DNA from: a virus
Length of the DNA: 23,502 bases
IMG/VR virus record: IMGVR_UViG_3300037119_007624
Location: 1 to 23,502 of that record
Strand: one strand, 5' to 3'
The position numbers and the translations under genes were made by a program. The notes below the pieces were generated by a model, which saw only the letters and a program-made list of their open reading frames with translations, had not been told where the DNA came from and did not search any database. Positions 971 to 19,893 of this stretch are shown here, piece by piece (positions within the stretch are counted from its first letter, which is position 1; the number at the start of each line of letters is the position of its first letter).

Positions 971-3364
971 CTAAACGAACGCCGGGGTGCCACCCAAGGC
1001 TTGCCCAACAAGATCGGGCTCAGCGGCGCTCGGGGAGAGCACGACCGGCTGCCCGGCCCGCGGACCGGGGGTGAGCACTGGTCGCCCGGCGCGCGTCGAC
1101 ACGACGAGCGGTACCCCCGCCCGCACAGTCGGCGCGGCGGTGGGACGGCCTGCGGTGGGCGGCCACGCGATGCGGATGTAGCCGAACATGGTGGCCACCG
1201 CGTAGAGCACCGCGGCGTACGCGGCGGCCCCGCCGGTCAGGGTGCCGATCACGGTGATGATGCTGCTCACGGGCCCCACGGCGATGCCGGCGGCGACCAA
1301 CGTGCCCACGGCGCCCAGGGAGCCGACGCCGTACACCGAGACGCCGCCGGCAGCCGTGAGCGTGGCCAGGGCCAGTAGCGTGGCGGCGCTCGGCGAGATC
1401 CGCTGACCCGATGAGGTCAGCGTTGCGGCGGCGAGCAGCATGGTGGTGGTCAGGCCGGCGACGTCGCCAGCGGCCGACAGGGTGAGCACGGCCGCCAACT
1501 GGGCGGTGCCGAGCTTGGTCACCAGGCCGGCGGAGGTCAGCACGGCGACGACCGTCAGCGACGTGGCACCCAGCTCGGTGACGACCCCGGCCGGCGACAG
1601 GGTGGCGACGACGGCCAGCGACACCGCGCCGAGGTAGCCGGCGACCGCGGCCGAGGACAGCGTGGCCACCACGACCAGCACGGTGGGTCCCGTCACCCCA
1701 CCCACGGCGCCCGACGCGCTCAGCGTGGCAACCACGGCCAGCACGGCCGCACCAGGCAGCCCGGGCACCCCGGCGCTCGTGAGGGTGGCGAGGGCGGTCA
1801 GGTTCGCGGTGCCGAACCTGGTCTGCAGGCCCGCCGAGCTCAACGTGGCGACGGCGGTCAGGGTGGCGACGCCGAGCTTGGTCACCAGACCGGCCGAGGT
1901 CAGCACGGCGACCGCGGCCAGGCTGACCGCCCCCGGGCCTGCAACGACACCGGAGGCGGTCAACACGGCCACTGCGGCCAGCGTGGTGCCACCGAGGACG
2001 GACACCACGCCGGTGGTGGTCAGGGAGCCGAGCGCGATCATGTTGATCGTGGTCTGGCCGGCGATGCCGCCCGCCGCGGACAGTGATCCGAGGGCGGCCA
2101 GGTTCGCGGTGCCGAGCTTTGTCACAGTCCCGGCGGCGGACACCGTACAGAGGGCGGCGAGGGTGGTCGTGCCCAGCTCGGTGACGATCCCCGCACTGGA
2201 CAGGGTGGCGACGACGGCCAGCCCGGCTGCGGCCACGCTCGTGGCGGCCCCTGAGCCGCTCAGGGTGGCCACGACGGACAGGTTCGCGGCGCCGAGCTTG
2301 CCCACGACACCCGACGCGCTCAGCGTGGCGATGGCGGCCAACGCGGCGGCCCCGAAGTAGCCCGCGGCGCCCGCGCTCGACAGGGTGGCGACGGTGGTCA
2401 GGTTCGCGGTGCCCAGCTCGGTGACCAGACCGGCCGAGCTCAGGGTGGCCACCACGGACAGGGTGGTGGCGCCGAGTTTGGTGACCACGCCGGCGGACGT
2501 GAGCGAACCAACCGCCGCCAGCGTGGTCGTGCCGAGAACGATGACGGCGCCCCCGACAGTCAGCACACTGACCGCCGTTAGGGCCGTTGCGGCCACCGCA
2601 GTCACCGCCCCAGCGGCGCTGAGAGTACCGATGGCAGCGAGGTTCGCAACCCCCAACTTGGTGACCAGCCCGGCCGAGGTGAGCACGCCCACGGCGGCCA
2701 GGTTCGCGGTGCCCAGCTCGGTCACCAGACCGGCACTGGTCAGCGTCGCGACGGCCGCGAGAGTGGCGGCACCGGGCAGGCTGACCAGGCCCGCCGAGCT
2801 CATCGTGGCCACCGCGGCCAGGGTGACGGCGCCCAGCTCGGTCACCACACCCGCCGAGCTCAGGGTGCCGACCACGGCCAGGTTCGCGGTGCCCAGCGTG
2901 GTCACCAGCCCGGCGCTGGTCAGGGTCGCCACGGCGGGCAGGGCGGTGGCGCCGAAGTAGCCGCCGGTTCCTGCGCTCGTCAGCGTCGCGATGGCCGGCA
3001 GGGTCGCCAGCCCGAGCTTGGTCACCAGCCCGGCGGAGGTCAGCGTGGCGACGGCCGGCAAGGTGGCCGCGCCTGGGATGCTGACGGTGCCCGCCGAGGT
3101 CATCGTGGCGACCGCGGCCAGGGTGGCCGCCGCCGGCTGGGCCTTGGTCCCCGCCGAGGTCATCGTGGCGACCGCGCCCAGGGTGGTGGCCCCCAGCTTG
3201 GTGACCACACCCGCCGAGGTCATCGTGGCGACCGCGGACAAGGTCGCCGCTGCCGGCTTGAGCACCGGGTCGGCCACCGAGGTCACGGTGGCGACCGCGG
3301 ACAGGGTGGCGGCACCGACGTGGGTCGGTGGCCCCGACGCGCCGAACAGCGGGAGGAGGGGCAC
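971..3364 (-). CDS. 797-aa protein of about 34 tandem 20-residue repeats, candidate tail fibre
   Basis: A 797-residue protein starting at GTG 3364, about nine bases after a GAGGAGGG ribosome site. Residues about 17-698 are tandem 20-residue units with a consensus close to GAATLAAVATLTSAGLVTKL. The units are almost only A, G, V, T, S and L, with one frequent charged residue (K or E) next to the last Leu. The final 100 residues differ: a degenerate unit, an aromatic stretch (FGYIRIAW), then three RAG-x-P-x-(V/L) elements in a Pro-rich tail. It is the last gene of the late operon, after two paralogous structural proteins, where phage fibre genes often lie. A beta-rich fibrous protein is my inference. 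Actinophage minor tail proteins with short repetitive Ala/Leu/Gly/Thr motifs are known, but I cannot assign this to a named family. Confidence 0.75.
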   Translation of the reverse strand: MPLLPLFGASGPPTHVGAATLSAVATVTSVADPVLKPAAATLSAVATMTSAGVVTKLGATTLGAVATMTSAGTKAQPAAATLAAVATMTSAGTVSIPGAATLPAVATLTSAGLVTKLGLATLPAIATLTSAGTGGYFGATALPAVATLTSAGLVTTLGTANLAVVGTLSSAGVVTELGAVTLAAVATMSSAGLVSLPGAATLAAVATLTSAGLVTELGTANLAAVGVLTSAGLVTKLGVANLAAIGTLSAAGAVTAVAATALTAVSVLTVGGAVIVLGTTTLAAVGSLTSAGVVTKLGATTLSVVATLSSAGLVTELGTANLTTVATLSSAGAAGYFGAAALAAIATLSASGVVGKLGAANLSVVATLSGSGAATSVAAAGLAVVATLSSAGIVTELGTTTLAALCTVSAAGTVTKLGTANLAALGSLSAAGGIAGQTTINMIALGSLTTTGVVSVLGGTTLAAVAVLTASGVVAGPGAVSLAAVAVLTSAGLVTKLGVATLTAVATLSSAGLQTRFGTANLTALATLTSAGVPGLPGAAVLAVVATLSASGAVGGVTGPTVLVVVATLSSAAVAGYLGAVSLAVVATLSPAGVVTELGATSLTVVAVLTSAGLVTKLGTAQLAAVLTLSAAGDVAGLTTTMLLAAATLTSSGQRISPSAATLLALATLTAAGGVSVYGVGSLGAVGTLVAAGIAVGPVSSIITVIGTLTGGAAAYAAVLYAVATMFGYIRIAWPPTAGRPTAAPTVRAGVPLVVSTRAGRPVLTPGPRAGQPVVLSPSAAEPDLVGQALGGTPAFV
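1271..3316 (-). repeat. In-frame 60-base tandem repeats (about 34 units)
   Basis: The coding sequence repeats with a 60-base period that stays in register almost throughout; units 1 and 27 are 21 residues long. Units are diverged at DNA level but keep strings such as those encoding TSAGLVTKL or SSAGLVTEL. Conservation is highest for the ATLTSAG core and lowest at the last four residues of each unit. Units ending VTKL or VTEL dominate; GYF, SLP, GKL and similar endings occur irregularly. Confidence 0.9.
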
Positions 3365-3396: not shown

Positions 3397-4083
3397 TCAG
3401 GGCCTGGTGAACTCGTCCCAGTCGATCGTTGCCACCCACCGGTCCGTGGTGGGGTTCCCCGCCGGGGTGCCAGTGGTGGCGCCCTCCAGGGACACGCACA
3501 GCCCTTCCCCTGGGTACAGAGTCACGTCGGTGGCACCCTCGAAGAACGTCCCGGTGTCGATGTTCTCGTAGGCGTCCATCACAGCGCCCGTGGTCGCAGC
3601 GAGTAGCCGGGGTGACCACACCTGCTCCAGGACCAAGGTCGGGGTCAAGGTCAGCGCGACGGTGGAGCTCGTCCCGTCCGCCGACGCGTCCCCCCACGCG
3701 GTGACCGCCGCGTTGGAGTAGGCCAAGCTGGCCAGCGGCGTCTTCGGGAGCACCGTGCCCGGGATCGGGAACGCGCCGAACAGATAGCAGCGGATGATCG
3801 GCGGCACCGTCGTGATGATCTTACTGACGGTGGCGAACTGGTCGACCCGGATCCGGTTGACGTTGAGCATCACGGGGGAGGAGGCGGCGTTGTGCAGCGC
3901 GAGGATGACCTGGCTCGCGGTGGCCCGGCCCGGGGTGAGGAAGGTGTTGGCTCGGCCGGAGAACCACACGATGCGGTCGTAGACCGGGACGACGAACTCG
4001 TCCCAGGAATCGGTGGACGTGGTCCCTTGGCGATACCCGCGGGGTTCCACTCCGCTCGTCGCGGTGGCGTCAACCTCCCCCAT
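3397..4083 (-). CDS. Structural protein paralogue B, 228 aa
   Basis: A 228-residue protein starting at ATG 4083 with a GGAGGTGGG ribosome site just upstream. It is clearly homologous along its whole length to the gene immediately before it (4104-4772). Shared blocks include GRANTFLTPGRA, LALHNA, VPPIIRC, VTAWGDAS followed by DGTSS, and a C-terminal GNPTTDRW block ending in TRP. It has no signal peptide or membrane segment, and the composition (T, V, S, A rich, beta-like) suits a virion protein. I do not recognise the family. Its position between LamG-like and repeat proteins suggests a tail tip or fibre component. Confidence 0.75.
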   Translation of the reverse strand: MGEVDATATSGVEPRGYRQGTTSTDSWDEFVVPVYDRIVWFSGRANTFLTPGRATASQVILALHNAASSPVMLNVNRIRVDQFATVSKIITTVPPIIRCYLFGAFPIPGTVLPKTPLASLAYSNAAVTAWGDASADGTSSTVALTLTPTLVLEQVWSPRLLAATTGAVMDAYENIDTGTFFEGATDVTLYPGEGLCVSLEGATTGTPAGNPTTDRWVATIDWDEFTRP

Positions 4084-4103
4084 GTCCCACCTCCACTTAC
4101 ACC

Positions 4104-4772
4104 CTAAGGCCGGGTGTATTCTTCCCAGTCCACGGTCGCCAACCATCGGTCGGTCGTCGGGTTACCGGTGGTCACGGTGGCCTGGTCCAGGAAGACGCAC
4201 ACCCCTTCCAGGGCGCGCAGCGTGATGTCCGAGTCGCCCTCCATGAACAGGCCCGAGTCGATCGGCTCGTATCCCACGGCGGTGAATACCCGCGGCGCCC
4301 AGAGCTGGGAGACGTTCGACCCGGCCGGGACGGTGATCGTCAGGGCGGTGCCCGAGCTGGTCCCGTCGACCGAGGCGTCGCCCCACGCGGTGACCGACGA
4401 GTTGGACGACAGCGCCGAGTCCAGGGAGACCTTGCTCAGCACGGTGCCGCCGGTGGGGACGGCGGTGAACTTGTGGCAGCGGATGATCGGCGGGACCACG
4501 CCGACGGCCTTGACCGCGGTGTTGAGCACGTCGACCCGCAGCCGGTTCACCGACACGATCACCGTCGAGGAGGTGGCGTTGTGCAGGGCGAGGATCTTCT
4601 GCGCAATCGCGGCCCGGCCAGGGGTCAGGAAGGTGTTCGCCCGGCCCCAGAATGTGGTGATCCGATCCTTGGTGGGGATCACGAACTGGTCCCACGAGTC
4701 GGTGCTGGTCGTCCCGCGCCGGTAGCCGCGCACCTCGACACCGGACACGGCCGTGCTGTCGACGTCACCCAT
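4104..4772 (-). CDS. Structural protein paralogue A, 222 aa
   Basis: A 222-residue protein starting at ATG 4772, shortly after a GAGGTGA ribosome site and eight bases past the stop of the LamG-like gene. It is the first of a tandem pair with 3397-4083; the starts (MGDVDSTAVSG and MGEVDATATSG) and ends (VDWEEYTRP and IDWDEFTRP) align almost residue for residue. The copies differ most in the middle (about residues 60-110) and near residues 150-180, and A lacks a few residues found in B near the C-terminus. The function is unknown. A virion role is inferred from operon position and beta-rich composition. Confidence 0.75.
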   Translation of the reverse strand: MGDVDSTAVSGVEVRGYRRGTTSTDSWDQFVIPTKDRITTFWGRANTFLTPGRAAIAQKILALHNATSSTVIVSVNRLRVDVLNTAVKAVGVVPPIIRCHKFTAVPTGGTVLSKVSLDSALSSNSSVTAWGDASVDGTSSGTALTITVPAGSNVSQLWAPRVFTAVGYEPIDSGLFMEGDSDITLRALEGVCVFLDQATVTTGNPTTDRWLATVDWEEYTRP

Positions 4773-6215: not shown

Positions 6216-6605
6216 TCAGGTGGCGCCGAGGACGATCGAGCCGGCGGCGAAGGACAGCGTGTCGCCCAGCGCGGTGGTCTTGTTCGCGGTGAGCCCCCCG
6301 AACCACTTGCGCACCGGGGAGCCGGTCGAGTCGAACAGCTCGATGGCCACCACGGTCGCCGCGGGCATGTTGAGGAAGGTGCCCACCGTCGTGTTCGAGC
6401 ACCCGGTGCCACCGGACGCGGTGGTCCACACGGTGATCGACTGGCGGGCGTAGGAGCCACCGGTGACCTCGGTGCCGGTGGCCGCCGCGGTGCCGATCAC
6501 CGTGAACAGCGCCAGCTTGATCGGGGTCACCGTCGCCAAGTAGGTGGTGGTGCCCATCGAGGCGTTGAGGAACCGGTCGGACTCGCCGGTTGCGAGCACA
6601 GGCAT
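6216..6605 (-). CDS. Small tail fibre-like protein, 129 aa
   Basis: A 129-residue protein starting at ATG 6605, three bases past the upstream stop, with a GGAGGG ribosome site inside the end of the upstream gene. It is rich in T, A, G and V. The motifs GGSYARQSITVW and VAIELFDSTGSPVRKWFGGL resemble small fibre proteins encoded in actinophage tail clusters, where a similar Y/R-x-x-(I/V)-x-W string and a C-terminal LxxGDxLxFxxGxI ending are common. It has no signal peptide. The family assignment rests on remembered motif similarity. The hairpin downstream would end or reduce transcription after this gene. Confidence 0.6.
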   Translation of the reverse strand: MPVLATGESDRFLNASMGTTTYLATVTPIKLALFTVIGTAAATGTEVTGGSYARQSITVWTTASGGTGCSNTTVGTFLNMPAATVVAIELFDSTGSPVRKWFGGLTANKTTALGDTLSFAAGSIVLGAT

Positions 6606-7359: not shown

Positions 7360-7938
7360 TTAGCAGGTCGGTTGGTAGGTGACCTCGTCGCTGGGGGGCT
7401 GGTCGCCCGCCGGCATCGGCAGCTGCGCGCCGCGGGCGTGCCGGCCGGTCTGGCCGACGAAACTGCCCGGATCCCCGGAGAGCATCTCGTCCACCGGGTA
7501 CGGCCAGGGCGTCGGGTCGGACACCGTGTCGATCACCGTGTCCGGGTCCGGGGTGTGCAGGTCCGGCGGCACCACGACCATCCCGGGCGGCGGTGGGCTC
7601 GGTACCCGGGACACGATCTGGGTACGCGCGTACGCGGCGAACGCGGCGGTCACCGCGGTCATGATGGTCGACTGCAGATAGGGGCTCAGCGCGAACCCGA
7701 AGGCCAGCGCCAGCGCCATGCCGGCCTGCACGAACCCGAGCACCGCCGGCGGTACCCGGTCGGCGGCGGCGAACGCGGCGGTGAGCAGCCCGGCCGCCGC
7801 GACGACCACGGCGTTGACCGCGCCTTGGAGCTCGGCGGAGAACGGGGCGTAGAACGCGGTGCCCAGCTGGGTGAGCACGGCGATCAGGCCCAGCCACAGC
7901 GCGGAGTCGCGCAGGAACACGGTGCGGAAGGCGGTCAT
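7360..7938 (-). CDS. Holin-like membrane protein with Pro-rich tail, 192 aa
   Basis: A 192-residue protein whose ATG 7938 overlaps the upstream stop (ATGA). Residues about 12-110 contain three to four hydrophobic segments: LWLGLIAVLTQLGTAFYAPF, then GAVNAVVVAAAGLLTAAFAA, then VLGFVQAGMALALAFGFALS, and a weaker one near TAVTAAFAAYA. The arrangement, including the LALAFGFALSP string, resembles actinophage holins encoded next to tail or lysis genes. The last 80 residues are Pro/Asp-rich and hydrophilic. Holins release endolysin at a set time, but no separate endolysin gene is visible here, so the holin call is an inference. Confidence 0.55.
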   Translation of the reverse strand: MTAFRTVFLRDSALWLGLIAVLTQLGTAFYAPFSAELQGAVNAVVVAAAGLLTAAFAAADRVPPAVLGFVQAGMALALAFGFALSPYLQSTIMTAVTAAFAAYARTQIVSRVPSPPPPGMVVVPPDLHTPDPDTVIDTVSDPTPWPYPVDEMLSGDPGSFVGQTGRHARGAQLPMPAGDQPPSDEVTYQPTC

Positions 7939-8534
7939 GGGTGGGTCCAGTTCTGCATCATCGCGGCCCGGGCGTCGGGGAGTCGGATCGCCCGGGTGCA
8001 CACCGCGCGGTGCAGGTCGTTGGCCATGTTGTTCTTGGCCTGCGCGCCCCGGGGCCCACTGCGCGGTTCGGGCCAGAGGTTGCGGGGGTCGGCCGGGGAC
8101 CCGCCGAGGGACAGCGGGATGAGGTGGTCTTCCTCCAGCTCGGCGTTGGGCACCGTGCCCAGGCCGTAGCGGGCCTTCTGCTGGTTCTTGAGGTTGGTGG
8201 TGTAGGCCGAGGGGGGTCGGACGGTCTTGGTCCAGTTCGGCTTGCAGATCGTGGTGTCGAGGGTCTGTTCGGTGACGTCGGGGTTGTGCGCGCCCGGGGT
8301 GCAGCGCAGGTCCGCGCGGCCGTCCACGACCGTGCACGGGCCGGCGTAGGGCTCCGCCGTCGGGGACAGGCCCACGGTCGGGGTAGGCGGGGCTGCGACG
8401 GGGGCGGCCGGGGTGGTCGAGGTGCCGATGGGGGGCAGCGGGGTGGGCGGGTTGGGGCTGCAGCCGCCGACCGTGATGACCACGATCAGCGCGACCGTTC
8501 CCCACCAGTACGCCCTTCGATTGGACATCATCAT
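7935..8534 (-). CDS. Lipoprotein with HNH-like DHLIPL motif, 199 aa
   Basis: A 199-residue protein with three tandem ATG starts (8534, 8531, 8528) and no clear ribosome site. Residues about 7-25 form a lipoprotein signal ending in the lipobox VGGC, followed by a Pro/Thr-rich linker to about residue 60. The rest matches a widespread bacterial secreted family: a CTPGAHNPDVT element, TICKPNWTKTVRPPSAYT, then EEDHLIPLSLGG, DPRNLWPEP and a final Lys/Asn/His-Cys region. The DHLIPL/NLWPEP pair resembles an HNH nuclease core with His near residue 137, but I know of no proven activity. It should sit on the outer face of the membrane of a lysogen or infected cell. A 10-bp-stem hairpin precedes it, so it may have its own transcript. 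Confidence 0.75.
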   Translation of the reverse strand: MMMSNRRAYWWGTVALIVVITVGGCSPNPPTPLPPIGTSTTPAAPVAAPPTPTVGLSPTAEPYAGPCTVVDGRADLRCTPGAHNPDVTEQTLDTTICKPNWTKTVRPPSAYTTNLKNQQKARYGLGTVPNAELEEDHLIPLSLGGSPADPRNLWPEPRSGPRGAQAKNNMANDLHRAVCTRAIRLPDARAAMMQNWTHP

Positions 8535-8595: not shown

Positions 8596-9009
8596 TCACT
8601 GCGCGACGGGAGGTTCCGGCTCGGCCGGCAGCTGGGTGGCCTCCGGCGGGGCCGGCTCGGGCGTCGCGGCCTGGTGGCTGGCGGCGATCTTCTCGGTCTC
8701 CGCGGACAGCTTCGACACCTCGTCCTTGACCAGGTCGGCCACCGCCTGCACCTCGGCCTCGGACACCTGACCCTGGGCCTGGGCCTTGGTCAGCAGGTCG
8801 TCGATCGCGGCGATCAGGGCCGAGTCGGTGGCGGTCAGCGCCGCCACCTGGGCCTGGAGATCCTCGAATGCAGCCATAGCGTGGTGCTCCGTTCTCAGGT
8901 TGTACTCCCACAGATCGGTCTGATCCGCGGACAACTGGGCGATCTGATCCTGGAGGCTGTCGTTGCGCCGGCGCAACGACATCACCCACTGGCGCATCTC
9001 CGCGATCAT
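8596..9009 (-). CDS. Coiled-coil protein, 137 aa
   Basis: A 137-residue protein. ATG 9009 overlaps the upstream TGA (ATGA) and has a GGAG site nearby; an internal ATG at 8877 also has a GGAG, so a shorter form of 93 residues could be made. Residues about 8-35 and 45-110 show heptad-like spacing of L, I, V and A with many charged residues, which predicts long coiled coils. The last 25 residues are a Pro/Glu/Ala-rich tail. It has no signal or membrane segment. Coiled-coil proteins of this type accompany actinophage minor tail genes, but the function is unknown. Confidence 0.65.
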   Translation of the reverse strand: MIAEMRQWVMSLRRRNDSLQDQIAQLSADQTDLWEYNLRTEHHAMAAFEDLQAQVAALTATDSALIAAIDDLLTKAQAQGQVSEAEVQAVADLVKDEVSKLSAETEKIAASHQAATPEPAPPEATQLPAEPEPPVAQ

Positions 9010-9248
9010 TGCGTGCTGCTCCACAGGTAGTCCTCCTCGCGCCGGATGTAACGACCGGTGATCAGCCACCCGCCGCCGTCGTGCTCGCGCTCCAGCTGCG
9101 GGTCGTCGCAGGTGGCCTCACGGAGGAGCCCGTAGATTTCCGCGATGGCCTCGTCCACCTCCCGGGAGGGGCGGGCGTCGCTGACGTAGCGAGTGATCAC
9201 CAGCTCGTGCGCGGGCCGCTCCGGAACGCTCTCGTCGGGTTCCGTCAT
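9006..9248 (-). CDS. Hypothetical acidic protein, 80 aa
   Basis: An 80-residue protein starting at ATG 9248 with GGAGG six bases upstream, 12 bases past the stop of the pseudo-sortase gene. It is rich in D, E and R. A predicted helix around VDEAIAEIYGLLREA is followed by a beta-like GGGWLITGRYIRREEDYLW ending. It has no recognised family, signal or membrane segment. Its stop overlaps the next ATG, so the two are probably co-translated. It lies inside the envelope-directed module and could be a partner of its neighbours, but nothing in the sequence shows this. Confidence 0.6.
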   Translation of the reverse strand: MTEPDESVPERPAHELVITRYVSDARPSREVDEAIAEIYGLLREATCDDPQLEREHDGGGWLITGRYIRREEDYLWSSTQ

Positions 9249-9260
9249 GGCGGCCTCCGC

Positions 9261-9866
9261 TCAGGTGGTGAGGGCTCCGAAGGCCACCACGTTGTCCAGG
9301 GCCCCCCGGCGTGCGGTCTTGACCCCGTCCCCGACGGTGACCAGGCGCAGGGTCGGCATGGCCTGGTCGCTGTAGACCCAGTCGGTGGGGAACCGCTCCG
9401 CGTCGACCCGCTCGGTGTGCAGGATCGTGTAGCGACTAACGGTCCCATCGGAGCGGTGAACGGTCACCGTGTCGCCCTCGGTGACCTCACCCAGGTGGGC
9501 GAACAGGCCCGGCTGACCGCCGCCGCTGACCCGGCCGAGAATCACCGTGGGGGTGGTGGCGGTGGGGGCGCTGGCCCGCCAGTAGCCACCCTGCAGGGGC
9601 TGGGCCGCGGGTGGGGTGTCCACGGTCCCGTCGGGTCGCAGCCCGAGCGGGATCAGCATCGCGCCGACGATCCCGATGCGTTTGACGTCGACCGTGACCG
9701 GCTCCGCCAGCGGGGGCCGGGCCAGCACGTACGGGGGCACCGGGTCGTCATGCTGGCCGGCTGCAGTGGGTGGCTGCGGGGCCCCACTACAGCCGGCCAG
9801 CAGCACCAGGGCGAGCGTCGCTGACAGAAGGGCGATCACCCGCCGGGTGCGGGGAAGGAGTCTCAT
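9261..9866 (-). CDS. Sortase-fold lipoprotein lacking catalytic His and Cys (pseudo-sortase), 201 aa
   Basis: A 201-residue protein starting at ATG 9866, overlapping the stop of a 23-codon mini-ORF (ATGA). Residues 1-26 are a lipoprotein signal: basic RTRR, a hydrophobic core, lipobox LLAGC with Cys26. Residues about 55-199 follow actinobacterial class E/F sortases: an IGIVGAMLIPLGLRPDG start, TPTVILG, LFAHLGEVTEGDTVTV, FPTDWVYSD, PTLRLVT and a DNVVAFG end. In active members the strings are GHVD and LITCGG. Here they read GRVS (Arg112 for His) and LVTVGD (Val178 for Cys); Arg186/187 remain near the usual Arg site. Transpeptidase activity is therefore unlikely. A membrane-tethered binding or decoy role is inferred. 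Confidence 0.8.
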   Translation of the reverse strand: MRLLPRTRRVIALLSATLALVLLAGCSGAPQPPTAAGQHDDPVPPYVLARPPLAEPVTVDVKRIGIVGAMLIPLGLRPDGTVDTPPAAQPLQGGYWRASAPTATTPTVILGRVSGGGQPGLFAHLGEVTEGDTVTVHRSDGTVSRYTILHTERVDAERFPTDWVYSDQAMPTLRLVTVGDGVKTARRGALDNVVAFGALTT

Positions 9867-9934
9867 GCGCCGCCGGGGCCCGGAGCGGACATCAGGGAGC
9901 TGGGCCCCGGGCGCAGGGCGGATCGGGCGGGCAT
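9863..9934 (-). CDS. Possible 23-aa leader mini-ORF upstream of the pseudo-sortase
   Basis: A short frame from ATG 9934 has a GGAG site five bases upstream and ends with a TGA that overlaps the pseudo-sortase ATG (ATGA). The peptide is rich in P, G, A and S and shows no domain. The pseudo-sortase ATG lacks its own clear ribosome site, so coupling through this mini-ORF would explain how it is translated. The hairpin at 9873-9910 lies inside it. It may be a leader with no functional peptide. Confidence 0.35.
   Translation of the reverse strand: MPARSALRPGPSSLMSAPGPGGA
9873..9910. terminator. GC hairpin in the leader of the pseudo-sortase gene
   Basis: CCGGGGCCC (9873-9881) pairs perfectly with GGGCCCCGG (9902-9910) around a 20-base loop. 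It lies in the 80-base gap between 9947 and 9866, immediately before the pseudo-sortase start. It has no T tract. It could be a terminator, or a structure whose unfolding depends on translation of the mini-ORF. Confidence 0.4.
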
Positions 9935-10784: not shown

Positions 10785-11360
10785 CTAGTAGTCGACGCCG
10801 GTGCCGGCAGGAATGCCCTGGTCGGTGACCCACAGCGTGGGCGGCCACACCCCGCCGGTGGTGGCGCTGTAGATCCCGTAGGTGCGCCCCGAGTAGCAGT
10901 AGACCGCCAGCATGCAGCGCAGCGTGGTGCAGGTGGGCGGGCACGGGAACAGCGCGTCGACCACGCCCTCGCGGACGTTGCTGTTCTGCCCGACCAGGTG
11001 GGTGATCTGCCGCAGGATCGCCGAGCCGGACGCGATCGGTGCCGACCCGTCGATGGTGTAGTAGAGCGTCACGAGGGTCAGGGCGTCGCCGGTGCCGTCC
11101 ACCCAGGCCCCGACTCGGCCGCTGACCTGGTAGAGCCGACCGGGTGTGACGGTGGCGGTGACACCGACCACGGCGCGGTCGACGGGACCGGCCAACCCGC
11201 TGATGTTGCCCGCCGCGCGGACACGGTAGGCCACGATCCCGGTGCTGTACTGGGACCGCAGGGTGGCGCTCGGGATGGTCCGCCGGCCCTGCTCGGCGAC
11301 CTGGCGTTGCAGCGCGGCCAGCTGCTGCCCCGGGTCCAGGGGCACCTCGATGCGGCCCAT
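10785..11360 (-). CDS. Minor tail protein candidate, 191 aa
   Basis: A 191-residue protein starting at ATG 11360, sharing one base with the upstream stop (TGATG). It opens with MGRIEVPLDPGQQLAALQRQ, a short helix, then becomes beta-rich. A cluster of Cys residues (CPPTC, LRC, VYCYSG) lies near residues 149-165. The tight coupling to the preceding tail gene and the beta-rich sequence support a minor tail or fibre role. An N-terminal helix followed by beta sandwiches is usual in actinophage minor tail proteins. I do not recognise a specific family. Confidence 0.6.
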   Translation of the reverse strand: MGRIEVPLDPGQQLAALQRQVAEQGRRTIPSATLRSQYSTGIVAYRVRAAGNISGLAGPVDRAVVGVTATVTPGRLYQVSGRVGAWVDGTGDALTLVTLYYTIDGSAPIASGSAILRQITHLVGQNSNVREGVVDALFPCPPTCTTLRCMLAVYCYSGRTYGIYSATTGGVWPPTLWVTDQGIPAGTGVDY

Positions 11361-12517
11361 CAGGGGCTCACCAGCACCGAGGTGGTCTCCAGGCTGGCCG
11401 ACGCCAGGGTGTGCGTGACCCCGATCAGCCGCTGCGGGTAGACCCCGTCGACGATCCAGCTGTCGTCGGTGACGGCGAACAGCGCATTGTCCCCCAGTGC
11501 CCAGGTCCCGATCTCCGGGAACGATTCCGGGTCCACCTCGATCGTCCAGGTCCGGGCCGGGACCATGTTGGCGGTGACGAACGCGGCGGCCTGGCGGTCC
11601 AGTACGGGCTGCTCGGTGACCGAGGCGACCGAGGGCACCGCGGCGGTCTGCTCGGCGCTGCGCTCCAGCATGGGCCACCCCCGCGCGGTGTAGGTCAGAT
11701 CCTGGGCCACCCCGACCATCGGTGTGTCCGAGGAACCGGCGCTGTTCCCGGTCACGTAGCCGCGGAAGGCCATCCCCGAGGAGTCCCCGACCTCGGCGAT
11801 CGAAGTGATCGAGGTGGGGAAGTCCCAGGCCCAGGGCGAGGTGACCAGCCCGAGCCGGGGGTTGCCGATGTCTACGGTCCAGCTCAGGTTGCGCTGGAAG
11901 CTGTCGAGCACCGCGGTGAACCGGATGTCCGGGCCACCGGCCTCCTCGGAGAGCTGGGTGAGCCGCTCCAGCACCGAGGCCAGGTCCGCCGCGGTGTAGG
12001 TGCGCACCGTGTCGATCACGACCGGGGAGGTGGCGGCCGGCAGGTTCAGCGGCAGCGTCCGGCCGGTCCCGGTGGAGCCCAGTAGCAGCAGCGCCCGGGC
12101 GGTGGAGAACGGGTCGAGGCTGTAGGACACGTCGGCGCCGGTAGCCAGCGGGGTGAGCTCGAACCCGGCGGTGAGCACGGTCCGCGCGTCGAACACCTTG
12201 GCGATCGAGGTGCAGCCGAACTGGATGGTCGACCGGTCCGCGGCCACGTCGTGGGTGACCACCGGCCCGGCCCACAACGGCTGGTTGTTCCGGCACAGCA
12301 CCAGGCTCAGGTACCAGTGCGCGCCGGCCACCGAGCGGGCCCGGACCTGGTTGGAGTTCTCGGTGATCAGGTTGTCGGCCTGCAGCGGGCAGGTGATGGT
12401 CATCGTGCCGGTACGGGACAGGTCCAGGCTGTCGGTCCAGGTGAAGTCCGACATCGGCAGCTCGTCGAGGACTTCCCCGGTCGTCGTGCGCGCGATCAGG
12501 CACGAGTAGGTGGCCAC
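11360..12517 (-). CDS. Minor tail protein, probable baseplate hub/tail-associated protein, 385 aa
   Basis: A 385-residue protein starting at GTG 12517, four bases past the upstream stop. It begins MATYSCLIARTTTGEVLDEL, then shows a beta-rich N-terminal module (SLDLSRTGTMTITCPL, then WYLSLVLCRNNQPLWAG and STIQFGCTSIAKVFDAR). That layout is typical of the siphophage hub-like (gp27/Tal-type) fold at the tail tip. A helix-rich insert lies near 185-205 (LASVLERLTQLSEEAGG). The C-terminal part returns to beta strands, ending HTLASASLETTSVLVSP. It has no enzymatic motif. The hub assignment is inferred from order and N-terminal pattern; minor tail protein is the safe call. Confidence 0.7.
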   Translation of the reverse strand: MATYSCLIARTTTGEVLDELPMSDFTWTDSLDLSRTGTMTITCPLQADNLITENSNQVRARSVAGAHWYLSLVLCRNNQPLWAGPVVTHDVAADRSTIQFGCTSIAKVFDARTVLTAGFELTPLATGADVSYSLDPFSTARALLLLGSTGTGRTLPLNLPAATSPVVIDTVRTYTAADLASVLERLTQLSEEAGGPDIRFTAVLDSFQRNLSWTVDIGNPRLGLVTSPWAWDFPTSITSIAEVGDSSGMAFRGYVTGNSAGSSDTPMVGVAQDLTYTARGWPMLERSAEQTAAVPSVASVTEQPVLDRQAAAFVTANMVPARTWTIEVDPESFPEIGTWALGDNALFAVTDDSWIVDGVYPQRLIGVTHTLASASLETTSVLVSP

Positions 12518-14589: not shown

Positions 14590-17500
14590 TCAGGCCTGGC
14601 GGGCGGCGAAGGCCTGGCGCCGCTCGAACTCGGCGAACGCCCGCTGCGGGGTCCACCCGGTGTCGTGCAGGTGCAGGTGGCTCTCGCCGCCGGCGGTCCG
14701 CGGGTTGCGGGTGAGGTGGGTGACCAGCCGATCGAAGCTCCGCGTCTGGTCCGCGGTGAGCACCCGCTCCGGCATCCCGGTCCCGTTGATCACGGTGGTG
14801 ATGCCGGGGGGCAGGTAGCCGCCGGTGTCGAAGCCGCCGTACTGCCCGACCAGCCCGGTGGCCTGGTTCATCCGAGTGGCGTAGCGATCCGGGAACGCGG
14901 AGCGCTGGATGCTCTGCGCGAGCCGACCGGGATCCTGCGCAAACCAGTTCCAGGGGAACCCGGCGAAGAACTTGCCGGCCGCGTAGGTCACGTTGGTCAG
15001 CTGCGCCGGGCTGCCCCAGCCCATCGAGGGCCGCTGCTGGAACACACCCAGCGAGTCGTGGTCGACCGCCACCTTGAGGTTGCGCAGGTTGGACTCGACC
15101 AGCCCGGTGGCCACCCCGATGATCGCGGCCTGCCGGGCCCGGTCCCCGAACCGGCCACGAGCCACATCGGAGATGATCTTGACGATGCCCGGGGCCTCGT
15201 CGCTGGTCGCACCCGTCGCCGCCCCGCCCGCCGCGGTGGCCTCGGCGTCCTTGCTCACGGCCACCTGGAACAGCCGGTCGAGCACCTTCTTGATCGCGCC
15301 GGCGGCCATGTTCCCGCCGAACGTCTTGCCGGGGATGGCACCGATCGCGGTGCGGACCGGGTCGATGACCGAGCGGGCCTTGTCGGTGAGGTAGGTGACG
15401 ATGGCCCCGACGGCCGTGCCGAGTGCCCCGAGTGCGATCCCGGTGCCGCCCCGGGCCAGTCCGGCCGCGGTCATAGCCCAATGAACGTGATCATAGTGTC
15501 CACTGCGGACAGTGGGGTTGTAGACGTGGTGGCGGCCGTCCTTGACGTTGTACGGCCCCGGCGTGTGGATCAGCTCGGAGATCGAGCCCCCGAACTTGTC
15601 GTAGATCCACTTGTCGATGGCGCGCATGTCGCCGCCGGCGATGTCGATGGCCTGGCCGGTGTTGTGGTAGCTGCCCGGCTCATTGCGCACCGAGCTGGAC
15701 AGCCGGGCGTACGGGATCGCGGCATGGACGATGGCCCACATCGCCTTCCACAACCCGCTGTCCCCGCCGCCGACCGGCGCCCCGAACACCGCACCGGTCT
15801 CCGGGGGCCGGATGAACCGCACCGGGTTCTCGTGCGCCCGGTTGATCGCGTCCATGGCCTGCGGGCCCATCGCGGCGGTGGCCTCCGGGCGCACGATGTA
15901 CTCCCCGCCGGCCAGCAGGTAGGGCTGGTTGCCGCGCCGCGCCGGGATGGAGTCGTGGCCGGGGCTGTAGCCGGGCAGCTGCCCGGACACAGGTGTCCCG
16001 TCGTACTCGTCCACGTAGCCGCCGCGGGCCAGGTTGCGGGAGCGCTGCAGGGCGCCGCCGACCCCGCCGGGGCCCGGGTTGGGGATCCGCGGGATGGAGA
16101 TGGTGATCTCGAAGCCGAGCGCCTTGGCCAGCCCGGACAGCGCCCCGCCGAACCCGTTGAGGATGTCGATCACCGAGTTGACCCCGCCGATGAACGCCCG
16201 GCGCATGCCGTCGAACATCGCGCCCTGCCAGCCCTCGACATCGAAGCTGATCATGTCGAGCCAGCCGTGGATGGCGTTGAACAGGGACATCATCGCCGTG
16301 TCGACGATGATCTTGGCCTGGTTGCCCCAGTTCCCGAAGGCGATCAGGTTGTCGGTGATCCAGATGCTGAACGAGGTCTTGGTGTCGGTGTTGGACTTGT
16401 CGACCCCGCCGATCCGCTCGCCGGCCCAGGTGCCCAGCTTGCCGGCCTGCTCGCCGACCCACACGCCGAGGTCGACGACGGTGTCGGTGCCCCACTTCTT
16501 GAGGTTGGTCTTCGAGGTGCCGGTGAACCAGTCGACGAGCTTGAACGCCGAGCCGGTCCAGGTGCCGACCGTGACCACCGCGTCGGTGCCCCGGGTCTTG
16601 AGATCCTTGTTGGTCTCCACCCCGAACGAGTTGATCAGACCGAGGGCGCCGCCGGTCCACAGCGCGATGTTCGCCAGGTGCCCGGCGCCGGTGGCCTTAG
16701 TGGTCTTGTTCTGCTCGTCCCCGGCGCTGTTGAGGACCTTCTCGGCCTTCCCTTTCCAGTCCAGGAGGTCGAGCAAGGACCCCGCGAGCTCCTTGGACAT
16801 GGCCTTGGTGAAGCGCATGACTGGGCTGTTCTCGAACTGCGATGCCGACGGGCCGAAGGTGGACTCCCCGGTGGTCAGGGTGTGCCAGATCCGGTCCAGC
16901 TCGCTGCGGCCCCGGAGGCCGAACGCCTGGTCCGCCGCCGCCGCCGCGTCGCTGGAGACCTGCTGCCCGATCGTCGGGCCCTGTCCGAACTCCAGCTTGG
17001 GCGACCGGGACCGCTGCAGCGCGCTCTGGTTCGCCGGCACGTTGTTGGGGTCCTCGCCGGCCAGCTTGTGCAGCTCGTCGCTGACCAGTTTCGCGGCGGT
17101 GAACGCCGCGCCGAATGCCAGCGCGATGAGCCCGATGTTGGTCACCGCGCCGGTCACCCCACCGGCGGCGGACAGCACCTTGATCGAGTCGACGGCGTCC
17201 TTGAGCCCCTTGCCCCCGTTGACCAGCCCGGCCACCATCTCGGCGGACTTGAACAGCAGGAAGAAGTCGATCAATGCGATGAGCACCGGCTGCGGGATCT
17301 TGGCCAGCTCCGTCATCACGGCCTGCAGGATGATCAGGTTGGGGGCGCTGGCCAGCGCGATGATCATGCTGCCGACGACGTCGCCGAGCTTCTTGAGGAT
17401 GTCCCAGATCCGCGGCCCGTTCTCCTTCACGTACGCCATGAAGTCGTTGAACTTCGAGTTACCTCCGCTGGCGGCGGACTGGCCGAAGTCGGCGAACTTC

Positions 17501-19893
17501 TTGGTGATCCCCTCGATGCCCTCGTTCATGGAGCGGAAGAACGGGCGGAACGCCTCGGCCAGCCCGGAGAACCCGGTGAAGATGTTGCCGGCGATCCGGC
17601 CGAAGGTCCGGATGGCGCCCGGCGCCTCCTCGGTCAGGTAGTCGATGAACCGCTTCCAGATCGGCCCGCCCAAGGCGTCGCCGGCGTCGATGGCCACCTG
17701 CCCCAGGGCCCGGGAGGTGACGTCGAGCAGCCGCTTGATGCCGTCGAAGGCGGGCTCCGCGCGCCGGGCCCCCTCGATGATCCCGGGCAGCAGCCCCTCC
17801 GCGGCGGTCTCCCGGAGCTCGGCGAACTTGGGCTTGAGCTCGGCCAGGTAGAACTCGACGAACTCGCGCCCGGCCGGGGTCAGCTTGGCCAGCGCGGCGG
17901 CGTAGGCGTCCGCTCCCTTGGCGGCGGACTCGGCGGCCGGGGCGGCGTCGAGCTGAGCCCGCTCCAGGGCCCGCTGCGCCGACTCCACCCCCGCCACGGC
18001 GGTGGCGATCGACGCGTCGGCCTGCCGGTGCTGCTCGGCGGCGGCCATCTTGGCGGCGGTGATCTGCTCCTCGGCCGCGATGTGCTGGGCGGCCTGCGCA
18101 CGGCGGGCCTCGGCGAGGGCCAGGGTGGCCTTCTCGGTGCCCTCAGCGGCCCGGGTGACGCCTTCCTGGGCCCGCACGACACCCGCGGAGCCCTCGATGC
18201 CTTCGGCGTCGGCCTCGCGCTGCTGAGCGGCCAGCTGCACCCCGCGGGCCTTGGTCTCGATCAGGTGCTGGGTGGCCTCATCCAGCGCCAGCTGGTCCTT
18301 CTCCAGCTGCAGCCCGGTGATGTGCTGCGCCCGGTCCAGCTCGATCTTCTCCCGGGCCTCCCGGAGCCGGATCTCCGCGCCGCGGGTGGCCAGCGCGTTG
18401 TCGGCGAGGGAGAACGTGAGCTGTTCGAGCTGCTCGCGGGCGGCCTTGCGGGCGTCGGTGAGCGCGATCTGGGCGGTCCGCTCGCCGCGCTGCGCGGTCT
18501 CCAGGGACTGCTCCGCGGTGGTGACCCGGGCCGCCGCGGTGGCCGCCCCGTCGGCACCGGCGCGCACCGCCGCGTCCACCCGCGCCTGCGCGGCGACGGC
18601 CCCGGCGGCGGCCGACGCGCGGGCGTTGGCGAGGCGACCGACGGCGTTGGTAACCCCCTCCTCGGCGTTGGTGATCGCCATCGCGTGCACCTGCGCCTGG
18701 CGGGCGGCGACCTCCTGCTGCTGCGCGGAGACCCGACCGGTGGCGGCGGACTGGGCCTGCATGGACTCGTTGGCCTTGAGCGCGGTCCCGATCCCGCCCA
18801 GGCCCAGCGCGAGGGCACCGACCCCGGCCACCGCGATGGGCAGCCCGGTGAGCAGACCTCCGGCGCCGCCCAGCAGGGTGGCGCCGATCGGGACGGCCAG
18901 CGGGCCCAGCAGCAGCATGCCGCGCTGCAGGTTGGACATCTCCGCGCCGGCCTCGGCGAACCGGGCGGCCAGCGACCGGATCCCGCCCTCGGCGATGCTG
19001 GTGTCGGCGTCGACGTGGAACGTCACGTCGCGGCTGGCGTAGGCCCGCAGCGCGTCGATCTCGGCGATGGCCTGCCCGGTCTCGGCGCGGACCAGCATCG
19101 AGGTGTCGCCGCCGGCGAAGGTCTGCCCGTCGAGGTCGAAGTCCCGCCCCCCGGAGAGCTGGGCCATCGCGGCCCGCTGCGCGTCGAGGTCGGCGAGGAA
19201 CCGGTTGGAGTTGGCCGCGGTGACCGACTCGGCGCGGCTGCGCAGATCCTCCAGCCCCGCCTTGAGCTGGGCCAGCTTCCGCTCGGCCGGGTCGATGTCG
19301 ATGTCGATCACACGCCGGGCCTCGACCGCGGACTCGATCTGCCGGTCCAGGGCCTGCACGTCGGCCTGCGCCTTGGCGGTGGTGACCTGCAGCTCGTGGC
19401 GGGTCCGGAAGACGTCCTCGTACTCGCCCTTGAGCCGCTCGATGTCCGCTTCGACCCGCTCGGTGTTGCCGCCGATGGAGATCCGGGCCACCCGCTCGCG
19501 GGTGAGCTTCTGCAGCTCCTCGTCCAGCCGCGCCAGGTCGGCGTCGAAGTCGCTGGTGTCGATCGAGGCCTTGGCGTCACGGAACGCGGTCTCGTACTGC
19601 CGCTTGAGCTCGGCGATCTTGAGCTCGGCCTCGGCGGCGTTGGCCGACAGGTTGGGGTCACCGATCGCGGCGAGGGCCTTGTCGATGGACTTCTTGGCCT
19701 GCTCGCCGAACGTGGTGCCGTACTTCTCCCCCTTGGTGACCGCCTGCGCCTCGTCGACCTGCGGCTCGACCTGGACCTCGTACTTGGACCGGATGGCCTT
19801 GAGCTGGGCCTCCATGTCCTTCTGGAACTCGTCGAGGCTCGGCCGGACCTCGGCGTGCGCGGTGCCCGCGCGGAATCCTGGACCTCCCGGCAT
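14590..19893 (-). CDS. Tape measure protein with two murein-hydrolase-like domains, 1767 aa
   Basis: A 1767-residue protein starting at ATG 19893 (GGAG six bases upstream). Residues about 20-290 and 380-720 are long Ala/Glu/Gln/Arg-rich helices. Hydrophobic segments lie near 322-370 and 840-940. A peptidase-like domain at about 1375-1475 carries SYHNTGQAIDIAGG and GHYDHVHW, the H-x6-D and H-x-DHVH pattern of M15/LAS-type zinc peptidases. A second domain at about 1560-1680 carries ATGLVESNLRNL and SLGVFQQRPSMGWGSPAQL, the actinobacterial transglycosylase-like pattern, with its Glu intact. The C-terminus has PERVLTADQTRSF, typical of actinophage tape measures. The protein sets tail length and probably aids wall passage. 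Confidence 0.92.
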   Translation of the reverse strand: MPGGPGFRAGTAHAEVRPSLDEFQKDMEAQLKAIRSKYEVQVEPQVDEAQAVTKGEKYGTTFGEQAKKSIDKALAAIGDPNLSANAAEAELKIAELKRQYETAFRDAKASIDTSDFDADLARLDEELQKLTRERVARISIGGNTERVEADIERLKGEYEDVFRTRHELQVTTAKAQADVQALDRQIESAVEARRVIDIDIDPAERKLAQLKAGLEDLRSRAESVTAANSNRFLADLDAQRAAMAQLSGGRDFDLDGQTFAGGDTSMLVRAETGQAIAEIDALRAYASRDVTFHVDADTSIAEGGIRSLAARFAEAGAEMSNLQRGMLLLGPLAVPIGATLLGGAGGLLTGLPIAVAGVGALALGLGGIGTALKANESMQAQSAATGRVSAQQQEVAARQAQVHAMAITNAEEGVTNAVGRLANARASAAAGAVAAQARVDAAVRAGADGAATAAARVTTAEQSLETAQRGERTAQIALTDARKAAREQLEQLTFSLADNALATRGAEIRLREAREKIELDRAQHITGLQLEKDQLALDEATQHLIETKARGVQLAAQQREADAEGIEGSAGVVRAQEGVTRAAEGTEKATLALAEARRAQAAQHIAAEEQITAAKMAAAEQHRQADASIATAVAGVESAQRALERAQLDAAPAAESAAKGADAYAAALAKLTPAGREFVEFYLAELKPKFAELRETAAEGLLPGIIEGARRAEPAFDGIKRLLDVTSRALGQVAIDAGDALGGPIWKRFIDYLTEEAPGAIRTFGRIAGNIFTGFSGLAEAFRPFFRSMNEGIEGITKKFADFGQSAASGGNSKFNDFMAYVKENGPRIWDILKKLGDVVGSMIIALASAPNLIILQAVMTELAKIPQPVLIALIDFFLLFKSAEMVAGLVNGGKGLKDAVDSIKVLSAAGGVTGAVTNIGLIALAFGAAFTAAKLVSDELHKLAGEDPNNVPANQSALQRSRSPKLEFGQGPTIGQQVSSDAAAAADQAFGLRGRSELDRIWHTLTTGESTFGPSASQFENSPVMRFTKAMSKELAGSLLDLLDWKGKAEKVLNSAGDEQNKTTKATGAGHLANIALWTGGALGLINSFGVETNKDLKTRGTDAVVTVGTWTGSAFKLVDWFTGTSKTNLKKWGTDTVVDLGVWVGEQAGKLGTWAGERIGGVDKSNTDTKTSFSIWITDNLIAFGNWGNQAKIIVDTAMMSLFNAIHGWLDMISFDVEGWQGAMFDGMRRAFIGGVNSVIDILNGFGGALSGLAKALGFEITISIPRIPNPGPGGVGGALQRSRNLARGGYVDEYDGTPVSGQLPGYSPGHDSIPARRGNQPYLLAGGEYIVRPEATAAMGPQAMDAINRAHENPVRFIRPPETGAVFGAPVGGGDSGLWKAMWAIVHAAIPYARLSSSVRNEPGSYHNTGQAIDIAGGDMRAIDKWIYDKFGGSISELIHTPGPYNVKDGRHHVYNPTVRSGHYDHVHWAMTAAGLARGGTGIALGALGTAVGAIVTYLTDKARSVIDPVRTAIGAIPGKTFGGNMAAGAIKKVLDRLFQVAVSKDAEATAAGGAATGATSDEAPGIVKIISDVARGRFGDRARQAAIIGVATGLVESNLRNLKVAVDHDSLGVFQQRPSMGWGSPAQLTNVTYAAGKFFAGFPWNWFAQDPGRLAQSIQRSAFPDRYATRMNQATGLVGQYGGFDTGGYLPPGITTVINGTGMPERVLTADQTRSFDRLVTHLTRNPRTAGGESHLHLHDTGWTPQRAFAEFERRQAFAARQA

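Follow-up and report, generated by a model that had tools for sequence, protein, structure and literature searches.

A gene in the late operon of a phage is probably the worn-out, vestigial half of a two-gene cassette. Its product descends from a class F sortase but has lost both catalytic residues, and the gene for a secreted protein (the cargo), which directly precedes an intact sortase gene in a sister phage, has here shrunk to 23 codons. The sequence analysed is a 23.5-kb virus record (23,502 nucleotides, 71.6% GC), called the window throughout.

Genomic setting

The minus strand of the window carries genes for a tail assembly chaperone, a tape measure protein, Dit and minor tail proteins on the same strand as the gene of interest (Table 1), bearing out the phage late operon proposed in the first-pass annotation. 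The relatives of the tape measure protein come mostly from phages of actinobacteria; at the DNA level, none of the deposited phages resembled the window. Class F sortases are present in 74 of 80 Pseudonocardiaceae genomes, and this family is the likely host group.

Table 1. Features of the window around the sortase-like gene
Feature	Position	Strand	Basis
Class F sortase homologue, catalytically defective, predicted lipoprotein, 201 aa (coordinates include the stop codon)	9261..9866	-	NCBIfam, Pfam, AlphaFold2 model, Foldseek
Signal peptide and lipobox, residues 1-26, LLAGC, predicted lipidated Cys26	9789..9866	-	sequence; weak Pfam LPAM_1
Codon 112, Arg (CGG), catalytic His column (CAC in L012)	9531..9533	-	alignment
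Codon 178, Val (GTC), catalytic Cys column (TGC in L012)	9333..9335	-	alignment
Loop past the catalytic Cys site, residues 179-190	9297..9332	-	alignment, model
23-codon remnant of the partner (cargo) gene, MPARSALRPGPSSLMSAPGPGGA*	9863..9934	-	comparison with L012
Upstream neighbour, coiled coil and one hydrophobic segment, syntenic in L012	9947..10450	-	
Downstream neighbour, 80 aa, syntenic in L012	9006..9248	-	
Minor tail protein (phrog_1885), fixes late-operon context	11360..12517	-	
Tape measure protein	14590..19893	-	

Several other products on this strand were recorded. A C-terminal stretch of the tape measure protein (residues ~1566-1687) resembles endolysins. Positions 7935-8534 encode a 199-aa predicted lipoprotein with a VGGC lipobox and an HNH-like motif (EDHLIPLSLGG...NLWPEP) conserved in the sister phage, possibly a surface nuclease. 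The coiled-coil protein of 8596-9030 weakly matches the C-terminus of a head maturation protease (Mu I protein), a match out of place after tail genes. A fibre-like protein (6216-6605, Pfam Gp80) is 97% identical to its sister-phage counterpart, the most conserved of the genes compared. The adjacent genes at 3397-4146 and 4104-4772 are apparently paralogous (repeat families D17 and D19) and their products matched no family, and the 797-aa frame at 971-3364 contains tandem repeats of about 20 residues (60 nt) with a weak QSOX thioredoxin-like match.

Fold and class of the window protein

The window protein matched the NCBIfam class F sortase profile (NF033748) with E=4.1e-33. Its score of 114 bits lies below the NCBI naming cut-off of 166 bits, a threshold missed likewise by the sister-phage sortase (140.5 bits) and by some intact cellular members of class F. 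The Pfam Sortase match (37.3 bits) is above its cut-off of 26.6. The original assignment to class E/F can be narrowed: the protein belongs to class F, not to class E. A search of PDB sequences with phmmer returned no match. An AlphaFold2 model built on an alignment of 11 locus-derived sequences reached a mean pLDDT of 78, with core ten-residue blocks mostly above 83 and low confidence in loop residues 181-188; a single-sequence model was dropped as too poor (pLDDT 41). Foldseek comparison of the alignment-based model with the PDB gave 263 matches, the best 50 of which are all sortases, drawn from classes A, C, D and E; the top match has E=6.6e-7 and a probability of 1.00. Profiles, model and structural matches agree with the sortase fold first read from sequence motifs.

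Searches aimed at viral proteins were less productive. Nothing was found at E<0.1 among predicted viral structures, PHROGs gave no meaningful match (a weak Rz-spanin hit was restricted to the signal-peptide region), and the PADLOC models of anti-phage defence gave none. Among 50,697 deposited phage records, no relative of class F was present. A viral scan by short exact patterns of the window protein was also empty because the patterns searched are not shared, and a 12-row alignment contained no stretch conserved enough to serve as a scan pattern.

Class F includes the housekeeping sortase of Propionibacterium acnes and SrtF1-4 of Actinoplanes missouriensis, and its physiological role is described as unknown (PMC13251363). 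The window protein shares with actinobacterial class F sortases the profile match, the fold, the order of conserved motifs and an N-terminal membrane or lipid anchor. It differs from them in its replaced His and Cys, its location in a phage late operon and the deletion of its partner gene. Because a check for the two defining catalytic residues found neither, this class F descendant should not be called a sortase.

Loss of the active site

We scored family columns on 54 other class F sequences, counting the sister-phage protein separately. All 54 have His in the catalytic His column and Cys in the LxTC column, where the window protein has Arg112 and Val178, exactly the replacements read in the first-pass annotation. 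The damage extends into the following loop: Gly180, invariant in the 54 sequences, is Asp, and the conserved Asp183 and Tyr189 are replaced by Lys and Ala. When only family-conserved positions kept by the sister phage are considered, the window protein is altered at 5 of 6 active-site positions and at 3 of 25 elsewhere (Fisher p=0.0018). The alignment reveals no conserved Arg after the Cys; Arg174, present in 85 of 95 sequences, is retained. Residues 186 and 187, singled out earlier for inspection, are not conserved positions of the family.

A sortase-fold protein might still act by an unusual route, with another residue completing a Cys/His pair or a non-cysteine reaction on an anchored protein, and the preserved fold leaves room for this. 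The only Cys in the protein, however, is Cys26 of the lipobox, and its His residues (39, 124, 137 and 150) do not occupy the catalytic column; therefore no alternative Cys/His pair is available. Gly180, Asp183 and Tyr189 are gone as well, making such activity extremely improbable. The protein is accordingly predicted from its sequence to be inactive, as first proposed.

The LLAGC lipobox, together with a weak Pfam LPAM_1 match, predicts a lipid-anchored protein. This agrees with the original reading of a lipoprotein, though not with treating the anchor as a special feature: by a simple pattern test, about half of the family members examined have a lipobox.

An intact sortase and its partner in a sister phage

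Scanning with the window's minor tail protein turned up L012 (IMGVR_UViG_3300018469_000176), which belongs to a viral contig of 62.7 kb and shares the window's gene order; this synteny confirms the setting among phage structural genes. Profiles for tyrosine and serine integrases found no integrase in L012. Its ortholog is 70% identical to the window protein, aligns with it over 201 residues with zero indels, occupies the same place in the tail operon and likewise has a lipobox (LSAGC) and an ATGA overlap with an upstream frame. Unlike the window protein, it keeps both catalytic residues (in GHVN and LVTCGG) and has a full-length partner. This partner, a 165-aa protein encoded directly upstream, overlaps its stop with the start of the sortase gene (ATGA). 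It is predicted to be secreted by a Sec-type signal peptide (AFA|QD, placed by eye), and its C-terminus, SQLPVGGADTGGA, finishes in LPVGGADTGGA.

At the corresponding place in the window, the upstream overlapping secreted cargo is reduced to 23 codons. Compared with L012, about 426 nt are gone in frame, breaking the signal-peptide core, whereas the start, the first codons, the stop and its ATGA overlap with the sortase-like gene are kept. A GGAG precedes the start in both phages. No other frame in the window carries the cargo C-terminal motif.

The window sequence is the only copy seen, in a single virus record, and sequencing, assembly or strain mixture could in principle have created both the substitutions and the deletion. 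Relative to L012, the changes CAC to CGG and TGC to GTC are two-base changes and the neighbouring loop is altered too, so the catalytic replacements are not single-base errors. Several codons differ independently by two bases while the frame stays intact, the changes concentrate at functional positions, the deletion preserves frame, start and stop overlap, and the flanking genes diverge normally, all of which makes an artefact very unlikely.

A recurrent cargo-plus-sortase cassette

An upstream frame with the motif P-x-GG-V/A-x-TG was found at 21 of 55 class F sortase loci, compared with 7 of 1069 other same-strand frames and 1 of 1309 opposite-strand frames; the contrast is somewhat inflated, as the controls are mechanical ORFs rather than genes, and the motif had been noticed in some of the 55 loci before counting. 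The motif occurs in two forms, one with a membrane segment and then basic residues after it, the other nearly C-terminal and starting only 9-15 residues before the end. Phages carry the tail-less form.

Besides L012, eight viral contigs encode a class F sortase, all with His and Cys and seven with a lipobox. The upstream secreted proteins end in VPRGGVATGGGPA (L052), VPVGGVATGA (L055), YPVGGVETGGGPA (L056, where the pair lies between terminase and portal genes) and VPVGGVATGDGSSL (L057), and those of L051, L053 and L054 have the related ending RVDTGLGG or RIDTGLGG. Integrase profiles (tyrosine and serine) matched in the contigs of L052, L054 and L055. In L059, a further contig, cargo, sortase, endolysin and holin follow one another consecutively; locus L074 in a Pseudonocardiaceae genome, a prophage, has an identical sortase and cargo end. 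This prophage resembles the window in its late-operon setting, lipoprotein sortase and adjacent tail genes of the same kinds, but its sortase and cargo (ending VPVGAPETGGL) are intact and precede the lysis genes. The arrangement also occurs on a bacterial scaffold. In Pseudonocardia sp. MH-G8 (L002), an Excalibur-domain protein ending in PLPVGGVATGAGPGQQS is encoded just upstream of a lipobox class F sortase that is 34% identical to the window protein; there the catalytic residues are intact and no phage genes were noticed in 10 kb.

Phages thus carry a sortase-plus-cargo cassette, the pairing of the two products being suggested by these shared arrangements. The cassette appears to have gone unnoticed in the deposited phage records and viral structures searched, and a literature search, with most subscription papers outside its coverage, found nothing on phage-encoded class F sortases. 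The homologue search proposed at the outset did yield viral and prophage relatives, but with His and Cys intact; among these viral proteins, only that of the window lacks both.

Decay versus retention

A tree of 56 sequences joins the window protein and its L012 ortholog as sisters (support 100/100); the end branch of the window protein is 0.43 long, that of L012 0.017. Viral sortases are scattered over several places in this tree, a pattern that fits repeated gene exchange between viruses and cells. With two outgroups, the window sortase showed more changes of its own than L012 did (18:6, p=0.023; 18:4, p=0.004), the count against the family as a whole being 26:15 (p=0.12). Neighbouring genes gave mostly balanced counts, with single outgroups sometimes unbalanced (for example, 26:10). 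A cargo gene cut to 23 codons and an active site lost on a long branch look like decay of the cassette. Against this we count the open frame, the lack of indels, the ordinary dN/dS, the modest outcome of the rate test and the persistence of Cys-less homologues elsewhere.

Some of these points bear on the alternative that the dead, lipid-anchored fold has been kept for a new role, in which it would bind host class F substrates or lipid II, compete with the host sortase or change phage adsorption to the infected cell. The frame, the lipobox and the conserved core (3 of 25 positions altered outside the active site) are retained, and 201 codons have accumulated no indel. The probability of zero indels under neutrality ranges from about 0.15 to below 0.01 with the assumed indel rate, mildly favouring past constraint. 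By contrast, neutral simulation at about 71% GC indicated that the lack of stops carries no information, and the pair's dN/dS of 0.56 is in the usual range for this operon. Beyond the active site, conserved positions have held only slightly better than variable ones (p=0.07), which speaks against a retained role, as do the long branch, the joint loss of active site and cargo gene, and the single known sequence of this type.

Inactive homologues in host genomes lend the alternative some support, as do class F sortases being usual in the likely host group. We examined 40 Pseudonocardiaceae class F relatives, deliberately chosen for low scores. Seven of the 40, from seven genomes (L101, L104, L106, L107, L108, L110 and L112), have Ala, Thr or Val in place of the catalytic Cys but keep the His, and are probably a stable inactive family. 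Two others (L113 and L114, with VGRIESN), lipoprotein-like and with the loop after the Cys deleted, keep the Cys but share with the window protein the replacement of His by Arg in this motif. None of the 40 has lost both residues. Inactive members of class F can therefore persist in cellular genomes, and a non-catalytic role for the window protein is possible. On balance we regard a retained pseudo-enzyme as rather unlikely. The first-pass suggestion that a dedicated pseudo-enzyme might block the host sortase or keep out other phages loses its footing with L012, in which the sortase is intact and overlaps the very partner that is deleted in the window.

Proposed history and significance

We favour decay of the cassette and propose the following: 1) in intact relatives, the first gene would encode a secreted cargo ending in a P-x-GG-x-x-TG signal, and the second, whose translation is apparently coupled to that of the first, a class F sortase with a lipid anchor; 2) this sortase would use its Cys to cleave the signal, attaching the cargo to the host envelope; 3) in the window phage, the cargo gene would have lost its ~426 nt in frame; 4) the sortase, left without purpose, would then have lost its catalytic His and Cys and residues of the loop, although the frame, the lipobox and the greater part of the fold core survived; and 5) translation through the 23-codon leader should still yield an anchored protein, which cannot catalyse transpeptidation and most likely has no important function.

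By analogy with the known chemistry of sortases, an intact cassette may serve to display a protein of the phage on the wall of its host, perhaps to exclude superinfecting phages. A broader scenario, in which actinobacterial phages repeatedly carry such envelope-coating cassettes and some drop the cargo and redeploy the inactive, anchored sortase to compete for, or bind, the substrates of host sortase, strikes us as doubtful.

For the family, these loci point to likely substrates of class F sortases: secreted products of neighbouring genes that end in P-x-GG-V/A-x-TG, some with a membrane tail after it and some lacking one. The window copy resembles a natural knockout, and the joint loss of cargo and active site supports the pairing of the two genes. 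If the pairing is correct, phages may covalently dress the surface of their hosts, with superinfection exclusion or host conversion as possible consequences.
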